A DNA stretch of 64,000 bases from Allobosea sp. Root381 (GTDB taxonomy: Bacteria; Pseudomonadota; Alphaproteobacteria; Rhizobiales; Beijerinckiaceae): assembly GCF_001429395.1 (NCBI RefSeq), contig NZ_LMJT01000034.1:1-64000 (forward strand), written 5' to 3'. The position numbers and the translations under genes are program-made. Every line of letters starts with the position of its first letter. Positions within the stretch are counted from its first letter, which is position 1. The notes beneath the pieces were generated by a model, which did not search any database, was not told the DNA's origin, and was given only the letters and a program-made list of their open reading frames with translations. Below, piece by piece: positions 53,426 through 58,636 of the stretch.

Positions 53426-54421
<996 letters not shown>

Positions 54422-54562: not shown

Positions 54563-55453
54563 GTGGATTGGGACCGCATCAGGATCTTTTATACGGTCGC
54601 GGAGTCCGGCAGCTTCACCAAGGCTGGCGATGTTCTGGGCCTCAGTCAATCGGCCGTCAGCCGCCAGATCGGCGCGCTCGAGCGGGAATTGCGCGCGCCG
54701 CTGTTCCACAGGCACACGCGCGGGCTGATCTTGACCGAGCAGGGCGAGTTGCTCTGGCGCGCCGCACGCGAGATGACGCAGCGGCTTGAACGCACGCGCT
54801 CGCAGCTCTCCGAGACCCGCGAGCACCCGTCGGGCGAACTCAAGGTCACAGCCACGCGCGGCCTCGGCGGACATTGGCTGACACCGCGGCTGGCAGAGTT
54901 CCTCGACCTCTACCCGGACATCAAGGTCGATCTCATCCTGACGGACGAGGAGCTCGACCTCTCGATGCGCGAGGCCGACATCGCGATCCGCCTGCGCCAG
55001 CCGCAGCAGCCGGACCTGATCCAGCGCAAGCTCTTCACCGTGCATTTCCACGTCTATGGTTCGCCGGCCTATGTGAAGCGCTTCGGCGAACCCAAGGCGC
55101 ATGAGGATCTCGACAACCACCGCCTGCTCTCCTTCGGCGGCACCTCGCCATCCTACCTCACGGCCGTGCACTGGCTCGGCACGCTCGGGCGCGACCCACG
55201 CAACCCGCGCCCGATCCATCTGACGGTCAACAACATCACCGCGATGAAGCGCGCGGTCGATTCGGGCGCCGGCATCGCCGTGCTCCCGGATTACCTGATC
55301 GAGACCGGCTCCCCGCTCGTGCAGCTGATGCGCGAGACCGAGATGCCGCAGCTCGAGAGCTATCTGGTCTATCCTGAGGAGATGAAGTCGGTCGCCCGCG
55401 TCCAGGTCTTCCGCGACTTCCTGATCCAGAAGGCCCAACGCTGGACCTATTGA
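54563..55453 (+). CDS. lsrB: LysR family regulator, LsrB/VtlR-like
   Basis: 296 residues from GTG 54563 with GGGGGA upstream; ATG 54533 is in frame. HTH: WDRIRIFYTVAESGSFTKAG and LGLSQSAVSRQIGALERELR. The C-terminal domain reads GELKVTATRGLGGHWLTPRL, DLSMREADIAIRLRQPQQPD and SGAGIAVLPDYLIETGSPLV. The WDRIRIF...SGSFTKAGD start and position directly after trxB are those of LsrB in Sinorhizobium/Agrobacterium and VtlR in Brucella (from memory), LysR regulators of redox response and of AbcR small RNAs. An sRNA-like locus follows. Confidence 0.85.
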   Translation: MDWDRIRIFYTVAESGSFTKAGDVLGLSQSAVSRQIGALERELRAPLFHRHTRGLILTEQGELLWRAAREMTQRLERTRSQLSETREHPSGELKVTATRGLGGHWLTPRLAEFLDLYPDIKVDLILTDEELDLSMREADIAIRLRQPQQPDLIQRKLFTVHFHVYGSPAYVKRFGEPKAHEDLDNHRLLSFGGTSPSYLTAVHWLGTLGRDPRNPRPIHLTVNNITAMKRAVDSGAGIAVLPDYLIETGSPLVQLMRETEMPQLESYLVYPEEMKSVARVQVFRDFLIQKAQRWTY

Positions 55454-55790
55454 TCGCGTGCCGATCAGATTGGAACGCCCTCCCCGTCATTGACGAAGCG
55501 GGCTGACTTCACAAAACCGCGTATCATTCCGGGACTTCGCAAAGCGAAGAGCCTGGAATGACGGCTGGCGTCCGCCGGCAGCGCTGATTCCATGATGGCT
55601 GGCCGAGCGGTCAGCGCGGGTTCACGCTCATTTCGTCGCGCATCCTCCGATTGCATGATGCAGCGGCAGCCCTGCCCCCGACTTGGGCAGAAGTACAGCG
55701 AACGCTTGAAAAAGCTGGGCCGTCCGCGAGCGATGGCTGCGCTACACGCATGTTTATCAATAATTTAGCGCCAATCTTGGACGATTAGCC
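55454..55790. other. intergenic region after lsrB
   Basis: About 340 bp with no supported gene. It holds a palindromic repeat at 55524-55561. An open frame of 63 codons (minus, 55465-55656) has no RBS or family match. The remainder has ordinary composition. Confidence 0.5.
55524..55561. repeat. palindromic intergenic repeat (TCATTCC type)
   Basis: Outer arms TCATTCC (55524-55530) and GGAATGA (55555-55561), inner arms CTTCGC (55535-55540) and GCGAAG (55544-55549). A similar element type with TCATTC...GAATGA is common in Rhizobiales genomes (from memory). Confidence 0.65.
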
Positions 55791-55796
55791 GCAGCG

Positions 55797-55813
55797 CATG
55801 CAATTTGTGCATG
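55797..55813. promoter_or_regulatory. LysR-type box (CAT-N11-ATG) upstream of the putative sRNA
   Basis: CATGCA ATTTG TGCATG, perfect 6-bp arms with a 5-bp spacer, again giving T-N11-A. Its centre is about 65 bp before the inferred sRNA start at about 55871, the usual position for a LysR activator site. TGCATTGCA (55831-55839) lies near -35 and could be the second, activation site. Confidence 0.55.
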
Positions 55814-55870
55814 GCGGACCCAAGAAATGCTGCATTGCAAAAAGGCAGGTGCTGTCCGATATAGCAATCA

Positions 55871-56010
55871 CGGTTGTTCGGAACGGGCTCTGCTATCTCC
55901 TCCCGGCATCGAGTTCGTTTCAGCCGTTCCCCTCTGAGATGTTTGGCGTTTGAGCCGAATGTTTCAAACTTTCAAGGCCGGCTCCCTCACGGGACGCCGG
56001 CCCTTTTTTT
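55871..56010 (+). ncRNA. putative trans-acting small RNA, AbcR (alpha-r15)-like
   Basis: About 140 nt ending in a strong intrinsic terminator that belongs to no coding gene: lsrB stops 520 bp upstream. A stem GGAACGG (55880-55886) and CCGTTCC (55924-55930) encloses a 37-nt loop with the anti-Shine-Dalgarno motif TCTCCTCCC (55896-55904), the feature used by AbcR RNAs to pair with ribosome-binding sites. Locus order lsrB then sRNA matches abcR1/abcR2 of rhizobia (from memory). A weak -10-like TATAGC lies at 55860-55865 with TTGCAA 19 bp upstream. Start and family are inference. Confidence 0.6.
55975..56010 (+). terminator. intrinsic terminator of the putative sRNA
   Basis: Stem GGCCGGC-TCCC with GGGA-C-GCCGGCC (one bulge), loop TCAC, followed by seven T residues. 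No protein gene ends nearby on this strand. Confidence 0.85.
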
Positions 56011-56030
56011 GGCTGAACGCCGCCTTTTCC

Positions 56031-56096
56031 TGTCATTGCGAGCCCCCGAGTCTTGCCTTTGGCAGGCCCAAGGACAGACGCCGCGAAGCAATCCAG
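56031..56096. repeat. half-copy of the GTCATTGCGAG / GAAGCAATCCAG repeat
   Basis: TGTCATTGCGAG (56031-56042) and GCGAAGCAATCCAG (56083-56096) match the left arm of the complete element at 58544-58636. The right arm is missing here. It lies between the sRNA terminator and the FMN reductase stop. Confidence 0.55.
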
Positions 56097-56148
56097 GAGC
56101 AGGTATAGCGTTGGCTGCCTTGGACGGTCGCAACGGCAAAAGCGGTGT

Positions 56149-56703
56149 CTACGCAGCGAGCTTGCCGACCAGCCCGGCGAACCTGTCCATGAACTTCTGC
56201 AGGAACTCGCGCGTCGCCTCGTTCGTCACGGCGTCGAGATCGTCGATCGCCCCGTCCTTGTAGGTGATGAACATCTGCCCGCCCATCACCAGCGCGCCCT
56301 GGTTGCCGAGGATGTCGCGCAGGTGCTGCTGGGCGCAGGCCGTGCCGACGGAGCCCGGGCTCGCGCCGATGATCGCCACCGGCTTGCCGCCCCAGACGCC
56401 CTTGCCCGAAGGCCTGGCCGCCCAGTCGATCGCGTTCTTGAGCACCGCCGGAATCGAGCGGTTGTGCTCGGGCGTGACGACCAGCACGCCTTGCGCCGAT
56501 TCGATCTCGCGCTTCAGCCGCGTTGCGTTCTCAGGCCAGGCCTCCGCCTCGAGATCCTGATTGTAGAGCGGCAGGTCGTCGATCCGCGAGAAACGCGACG
56601 TGAACGAGCCCTCGCCGAGCTTCGCCAGCGCCCGTCCCAGCCGGAGATTGATGGACGCCTTGCGGTTGCTGCCGACGATAACGGCGAGCTTGAACTGAGC
56701 CAT
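56149..56703 (-). CDS. NADPH-dependent FMN reductase family protein
   Basis: 184 residues from ATG 56703. Flavodoxin-like start KLAVIVGSNRKASINLRLGR binds the FMN phosphate; VVTPEHNRSIPAVLKNAIDW is the family loop with PEHNRS and GKPVAIIGASPGSVGTA follows. It reduces quinones, azo dyes or chromate with NADPH in related enzymes. The substrate here is unknown. Single gene, no partner evident. Confidence 0.92.
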   Translation of the reverse strand: MAQFKLAVIVGSNRKASINLRLGRALAKLGEGSFTSRFSRIDDLPLYNQDLEAEAWPENATRLKREIESAQGVLVVTPEHNRSIPAVLKNAIDWAARPSGKGVWGGKPVAIIGASPGSVGTACAQQHLRDILGNQGALVMGGQMFITYKDGAIDDLDAVTNEATREFLQKFMDRFAGLVGKLAA

Positions 56704-56860
56704 GAAGAAGCCTCGCGAACAGAAAGAAAGGAAAGGGACCGGGAGGGAACGCACCGGAGCGGCTCCGGGTTCGGACAGTCCGACATCGGGCCGCAAAGCG
56801 GAAGCCGCCTTTCGGATGAAGCTGATCAGGGTATGACGCAGCGCGGCGCGCTTGTGCGGC

Positions 56861-58543: not shown

Positions 58544-58636
58544 CCGTCATTGCGAGGAGCGAAAGCGACGAAGCAATCCAGAAGCGGCAGAGCTCCCCGC
58601 CCCCCTGGATTGCTTCGCTTAAGCTCGCGATGACGG
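58544..58636. repeat. complete palindromic repeat (GTCATTGCGAG...CTCGCGATGAC)
   Basis: Inner perfect 13-bp arms CGAAGCAATCCAG (58569-58581) and CTGGATTGCTTCG (58605-58617); outer arms CCGTCATTGCGAG and CTCGCGATGACGG with one mismatch. It lies between leuB and msrP. A half-copy occurs at 56031-56096. A dispersed repeat type that I recall from several alphaproteobacteria. Confidence 0.8.

Follow-up and report, generated by a model that had tools for sequence, protein, structure and literature searches.

RNA locus and predicted fold

The window analysed here is the whole 64,000-nucleotide stretch of DNA from Allobosea sp. Root381. Within it, trxB and lsrB are followed on the same strand by a terminator-ended RNA element, which starts ~415 nt past the lsrB stop codon. 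Open reading frames and Pfam matches confirmed the order trxB, lsrB, small RNA given in the first-pass annotation. The features of the locus are given below.

53456-54421, + strand: trxB, thioredoxin reductase (Pfam Pyr_redox_2; named from homology and synteny)
54563-55453, + strand: lsrB/vtlR, LysR-type regulator (Pfam; 296 aa, zero cysteine)
55798-55812, + strand: LysR-type dyad ATGCA-N5-TGCAT (T-N11-A), proposed LsrB site, read from sequence
55809-55821, + strand: position of the published VtlR/LsrB box GCAT-N3-TG-N3-T, with only the GCAT half kept
55835-55840, + strand: predicted -35 element TTGCAA, with a 17-nt spacer to the -10 element
55858-55863, + strand: predicted -10 element GATATA (sequence and genus pattern; missed by an E. 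coli-type scan)
55869-56010, + strand: putative AbcR-type small RNA, ~142 nt with inferred 5' end; three hairpins, terminator-ended
55870-55927, + strand: stem-loop 1 (fold and alignment; both-side changes at columns 17/56, 18/55 and 27/44)
55896-55904, + strand: aSD1, UCUCCUCCC, in the loop of stem-loop 1
55900-55905, + strand: M1-equivalent CUCCCG, within the loop of stem-loop 1, a sequence reading
55926-55936, + strand: aSD2, GUUCCCCUCUG, between stem-loops 1 and 2
55926-55931, + strand: M2 motif GUUCCC, between stem-loops 1 and 2
55935-55966, + strand: stem-loop 2 (fold and alignment)
55967-55975, + strand: A/U-rich single-stranded linker, candidate Hfq site, from sequence
55976-56010, + strand: intrinsic terminator, an 11-pair stem with one bulge (55976-56002) and then seven T (56004-56010)
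56149-56796, - strand: NADPH-dependent FMN reductase gene (ORF, Pfam), convergent to the RNA, start codon uncertain

Folding of positions 55859-56010 (152 nt) gave three hairpins at -62.8 kcal/mol (z -4.9), and none of 200 shuffled sequences folded equally well. The first hairpin presents the loop TCTCCTCCC (55896-55904), in which UCCUCCC is exact, on a bulged inner helix of 14 pairs above a basal helix of 7 pairs; the 14th inner pair is not retained in relatives, being unpaired in 26 of 47. The first-pass annotation had correctly seen an anti-Shine-Dalgarno motif in a hairpin loop and a strong terminator with seven T residues, which here follow the 11-pair bulged stem. Its 7-bp stem for the loop is shorter than the hairpin seen here. 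A simple consensus scan for promoters and terminators called neither at the RNA locus, which is attributed to the bulge in the terminator stem and to a promoter that differs from the E. coli consensus.

An imperfect palindrome, CATTCCGGGACTTCGC...GCGAAGAGCCTGGAATG, was spotted by eye between lsrB and the RNA (55520-55565). The sequence GCGAAGCAATCCAG is found at 56083-56096, 58568-58581 and 58605-58618, and may be the terminal part of an intergenic repeat of the dispersed kind; these three matches at <=2 mismatches compare with 1.0 expected, and 7 of 100 shuffles reach three, so they may be due to chance.

Conservation and homology to AbcR

A covariance model, R1, was built only from 47 same-genus sequences (alignment A2, comprising the 47 distinct rows from 54 loci after identical copies were removed and the divergent L056-L061 dropped). 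R1 matched in 60 of 61 same-genus genomes, and the exception (G025) is also without an lsrB match; lsrB itself was matched in 60 of the 61 and, at E<=1e-70, in 275 of the 297 genomes of the order. A single R1 copy was found in the window's own genome at E<=0.1. The RNA adjoins lsrB in all 60 genus loci examined, and the comparison downstream of lsrB orthologues proposed in the first-pass annotation returned the same RNA in the same place across the genus. TCCTCCC stands 29 nt before TTCCCCTCT in each of the 30 loci first read; among the next 30, both motifs are present in 24, and the other six are more divergent but recognizable. TTCCCCTCT occurs in 54 of the 60 loci, with a shortened CCCTCT form in the remaining six.

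The 47 distinct copies align at 89% mean column identity and range in length from 140 to 147 nt in single-base steps. When A2 was placed on the folded structure, 98.7% of cells were paired, whereas the figure for slid versions of the alignment was 46.9% at most. Both-side changes numbered 33, compared with 8.5 in shuffles. RNAalifold recovered only 18 pairs from the first alignment, A1 (53 rows), because six divergent rows were out of register.

Eight extra near-identical AbcR copies (L202-L209; 114-147 bits) were seen away from lsrB in five same-genus genomes (G003, G007, G028, G042 and G049); the GCAT half-site and TTGC block that precede the RNA are for the most part preserved there too. 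A ParA-type ATPase, Hsp90 and an autoinducer synthase are among the products encoded at three of these loci, and some of the contigs may, from their size, be plasmids. A divergent sibling RNA with the linker GUUCCCCUCGAG was also observed (L210 3324-3455, L211 3389-3528 and L212 3213-3352). It sits where an EamA transporter gene begins, lies in L211 near a gene for a peptide-type ABC binding protein (SBP_bac_5), and could be either a leader or an RNA of the AbcR2 type.

The Rfam search for alpha-r15/AbcR that the first-pass annotation had proposed produced a hit for ar15 (RF02345) over the full model length (26.6 bits, E 0.0049 in 1201 nt), but this lies under the 40-bit gathering score, which is a detection threshold and no biological trait. 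At gathering scores, only a tRNA was called in the whole window. The sub-threshold hit is weak alone and serves as a lead only, because the search at E up to 10 also matches 12 of 14 control genomes, none of them above the cut-off. A second ar15 hit in the same genome (18.5 bits, L002) begins at a gene's end and was set aside as chance; by eye, that gene resembles one for a heat-shock sigma factor.

Homology to accepted AbcR members was provided by the reverse comparison. R1, trained on the genus, found the two copies of Sinorhizobium shofinae (L160, 4092-4219 and 4296-4418; 44.3 and 39.5 bits) as well as the two of Rhizobium tubonense (L164, 3988-4111 and 4201-4324; 38.8 and 38.2 bits), and ar15 scored 100.6-117.9 bits at overlapping places on the same four copies. 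The copies of these two species also carry GTTCCCCTCTG. A tandem pair was likewise matched by R1 in Chelatococcus sambhunathii (78.4 and 76.7 bits). Conservation in the genus, the matches of R1 to pairs called by Rfam, adjacency to lsrB, compensating changes and the presence of both motifs together argue that the window RNA is homologous to AbcR (Rfam ar15) and very probably of the AbcR kind. The AbcR-like small RNA of the first-pass annotation is upheld by this comparative evidence rather than by the Rfam score.

Across the order, the best 29 R1 hits outside the window's own genome include 24 with an lsrB place among the matches listed; 22 of these are on the lsrB strand, at 115-452 nt downstream of the gene, one is 23 kb off and one is on another contig. 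A broader model, R2, was based on a family-wide alignment, A4, of 53 matches, whose rows include the divergent L058, L059 and L061, but not L056, L057 and L060, together with L099, which is a named record from that divergent group. In A4, which was fitted to the model and is so biased its way, 91.1% of cells are paired and 44 of 45 pairs have both-side changes, with 483 both-side cells against 144.7 in shuffles and 64-84 in slid versions. R2 matched at E<=0.001 in 130 of the 297 genomes of the order and had no such match in 167. It found nothing in 10 of the 11 genomes of the same GTDB family outside the genus, and its sole match there is far from lsrB.

Co-location was counted among 121 listed genomes other than the window's own, with one R2 place per genome (two for one genome) and with 38 genomes that have no listed lsrB place left out. 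In at least 83 genomes both places are listed; 54 of these place the RNA on the lsrB strand, 87-711 nt downstream of the gene, and 29 have it outside the 2 kb downstream. Measured from the lsrB 3' end, the RNA sits 21-28 kb upstream in nine listed genomes (f20, g25), where it shares the lsrB strand, and 3.4-4.2 kb upstream in seven (f29), where it is on the other strand; these RNAs have moved yet are still linked to lsrB. Among 80 named lsrB loci, R2 matched within 2.5 kb downstream of lsrB in 57 (33 of which had supplied R2 rows), with two copies in five of them. Of the rest, two have an upstream match on the opposite strand and 21 lack any; three named loci (L108, L135 and L169) extend <600 nt beyond lsrB.

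No R1 or R2 match was found in the 11 named loci of Methylobacterium and Methylorubrum (L105-L112, L115, L119 and L123), of which 10 are informative, since L108 has only 65 nt past lsrB. Unfiltered R2 gave four partial matches, at E 0.17 or worse, on those 11 and three further loci. The two genera thus appear to keep lsrB without an adjoining AbcR, which may reflect loss, removal elsewhere or strong divergence.

Predicted promoter, probable LsrB control and alternative explanations

The LysR-type box that the first-pass annotation placed about 65 bp before the start was recovered as a dyad centred ~64 nt before the inferred start. All 54 genus copies covered, a set without the six divergent loci, have the ATG[CT]-N5-9-GCAT dyad, the GCAT half and TTGC[AG]A, and the combined -35 and -10 pattern is present in 53. 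In S. meliloti, LsrB binds a promoter whose LsrB box, GCAT-N3-TG-N3-T, is described at -61 to -49 (PMC8844928). The exact box was found in none of the 54 genus copies. It precedes 12 of the 32 homologues in named loci (the 32 including L099, of the divergent same-genus group), 51-57 nt ahead of the match start, and occurs in 0.5% of mononucleotide shuffles.

The hairpins and terminator could be the end of a long lsrB 3' UTR, any small RNA being a processed tail of the lsrB mRNA, as their position ~415 nt after the lsrB stop on the same strand would allow. Upstream identity argues otherwise. In 43 genus copies, the 70 nt directly before the RNA, where the promoter-like block is, show an ungapped identity of 0.75-0.82; the value is 0.53 from -130 to -70 and 0.30-0.31 beyond -130. 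Conservation thus ends at about -130, which argues that the RNA is its own transcription unit. The distance from lsrB to TCCTCCC also ranges from 200 to 596 nt (30 loci), the eight extra copies carry the same upstream block away from lsrB in five genomes of the genus, and in some other families kilobases separate the RNA from lsrB, with one group having it on the opposite strand. A 3' UTR, named in the first-pass annotation as an outcome that would overturn its reading, is unsupported by these data and very unlikely. It is less easily dismissed, though still unlikely, that an AbcR-like RNA is driven in this genus by another factor at the promoter and that its adjacency to lsrB is inherited. 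The exact box is absent, and in S. meliloti AbcR1 is LsrB-driven and AbcR2 depends on RpoH1 rather than LsrB (PMC8844928). Against this, the GCAT half-site and the T-N11-A-type dyad are invariant in the 54 copies, and the RNA adjoins lsrB in every one of the 60 loci. LsrB control of the RNA is hence graded as likely, by analogy with these relatives. The LysR-sRNA unit of the first-pass annotation stands as to adjacency, dyad and promoter block, but the exact VtlR box is absent and LsrB regulation is drawn from relatives.

Two explanations concern the nature of the product. The loop UCUCCUCCC resembles the CCUCCUCCC loop of SmelA075/SmelA099 (PMC3927594), and Rfam's tool left out one lower-scoring, overlapping match of the same clan, so that ar15 is the best of its clan and not the sole match. 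Membership of another anti-Shine-Dalgarno family (NfeR1, CCUCCUCCC-loop RNAs such as SmelA075/SmelA099, or mmgR) is nevertheless highly improbable, with no listed family besides ar15 at E<1 in 55300-56500 and with a GUUCCCCUCUG linker, a three-hairpin order and an lsrB synteny that are those of AbcR. That the locus encodes a short protein has scarcely any credibility. The first-pass annotation saw no protein gene on this strand; mechanical ORFs do cross it, among them one of 129 aa from TTG 55874, but no frame is open through all 47 homologues (29 of 47 at best). Homologue lengths differ by single bases, and complete ORFs of 20 aa lie inside only 7, 2 and 1 of the 47, by frame.

The LsrB protein itself departs from that of A. 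tumefaciens, which carries four cysteines arranged as two pairs; replacement of C273 there leads to greater sensitivity to peroxide (PMC11975290). No cysteine occurs in LsrB of the window or of the closest 30 of the 60 genus loci, and LsrB of the divergent relative L099 has one, at position 164. Among the 80 named loci, the C144/C273 pair (A. tumefaciens numbering) is present in seven, all with AbcR adjoining lsrB; of the 57 loci with AbcR beside lsrB, 21 have no cysteine, 28 have cysteines other than these and one has a single member of the pair. Because AbcR adjoins lsrB in 57 of 80 loci and the pair is found in 7 of 80, the AbcR link is, on the sequences compared, much broader than the thiol switch. 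We tentatively suggest, as an idea with somewhat less than even odds, that LsrB was originally a metabolite-responsive driver of one nutrient-uptake sRNA and not a thiol redox sensor, that the peroxide-sensing pair was added later in the Rhizobiaceae-Phyllobacteriaceae branch, and that Bosea keeps the older, cysteine-free circuit. A cysteine-free LsrB offers a natural test of the LsrB signal: should this regulator drive the RNA all the same, oxidation of cysteines in LsrB itself, the signal proposed for Agrobacterium and Sinorhizobium, could not be what it senses.

Proposed mechanism, targets and known systems

The preferred reading, given a probability of about 0.88, is that of a trans-acting AbcR (alpha-r15) sRNA with its own promoter downstream of lsrB, most likely activated by LsrB and repressing mRNAs. 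It is supported directly by a structured RNA gene that is conserved and homologous to AbcR, by the promoter-like block before it, and by the hfq (E 8.5e-32) and lsrB genes of the same genome; from its relatives we infer that the RNA is expressed, activated by LsrB and dependent on Hfq, and which targets it has. The RNA would be transcribed from the promoter downstream of lsrB, most likely switched on by LsrB bound at the dyad ~64 nt before the start. Hfq probably binds the A/U linker and the U tail. The two exposed C/U-rich stretches, one in the loop of stem-loop 1 and one in the linker before stem-loop 2, would then pair with the Shine-Dalgarno regions of mRNAs, mostly those for ABC-transporter binding proteins, and the pairing would block translation and hasten mRNA decay. 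In proposing an AbcR-type RNA beside lsrB, the first-pass annotation was right in substance.

For the relatives, two anti-Shine-Dalgarno motifs acting on transport mRNAs have been described (PMC8844928; under the names M1 and M2, PMC5461406), as have the UCCUCCC loop, A/U-rich linker and Hfq association of ar15 RNAs (PMC3712013); repression of ABC transporters by the window RNA is suggested by this analogy. Predicted pairing was compared between the starts of 50 binding-protein genes (all 20 Peripla_BP_6 matches and 30 of 47 SBP_bac_5) and those of 30 of 66 LysR genes, including lsrB. It was stronger at the binding-protein starts for aSD1 (p 6e-6) and aSD2 (p 6e-4), and alike for the 16S anti-Shine-Dalgarno (p 3e-6); start codons were picked by Shine-Dalgarno strength, and the comparison is not separable from it. 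With the 16S anti-Shine-Dalgarno as the reference, the two gene sets differed at p 0.025 for aSD1; the value for aSD2 was p 0.33.

The mechanism is an ordinary one, and interest lies in the cysteine-free LsrB partner, the copies away from lsrB and the RNAs that Rfam misses. Among 20 named loci scanned, ar15 exceeded its gathering score in five and R2 matched in 17, 12 of which had supplied R2 rows; at its threshold the Rfam model thus misses 12 of the 17 R2-positive loci. The AbcR circuit, studied in plant symbionts and other host-associated bacteria, is extended here to Bosea and further Hyphomicrobiales. No report of AbcR in Bosea was found in the literature searched, most subscription papers being outside its reach, and no priority is claimed.

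The window RNA is most readily compared with AbcR1 and AbcR2 of S. meliloti (alpha-r15, RF02345), with which it shares three hairpins, the UCCUCCC loop, the GUUCCCCUCUG linker, the A/U linker and terminator, and a location downstream of lsrB. This likeness is taken from papers only, the sequence comparison being made through S. shofinae and R. tubonense. In contrast to the S. meliloti RNAs, there is one copy here, it scores below the ar15 gathering score, and only half of the VtlR box is present; stem-loops 1 and 2 are also longer here than in S. shofinae. The order trxB-vtlR-abcR reported for A. tumefaciens (PMC7486931) is that of the window, but AbcR1 and AbcR2 form a tandem pair there and a single RNA is found here. 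The A. tumefaciens LsrB, with its four cysteines and a C273 needed for peroxide resistance (PMC11975290), likewise contrasts with the window LsrB, which has none. The AbcR RNAs of Brucella abortus are described with the motifs M1, CUCCCA, and M2, GUUCCC (PMC5461406). M2 is identical in the window RNA, and the M1-equivalent lies likewise in the loop of the first hairpin and, as CUCCCG, differs from CUCCCA in the last base only (PMC5461406). This mismatch to the exact M1 was not treated as excluding AbcR membership, because the last base of M1 varies also in AbcR2 of S. meliloti (PMC5461406).
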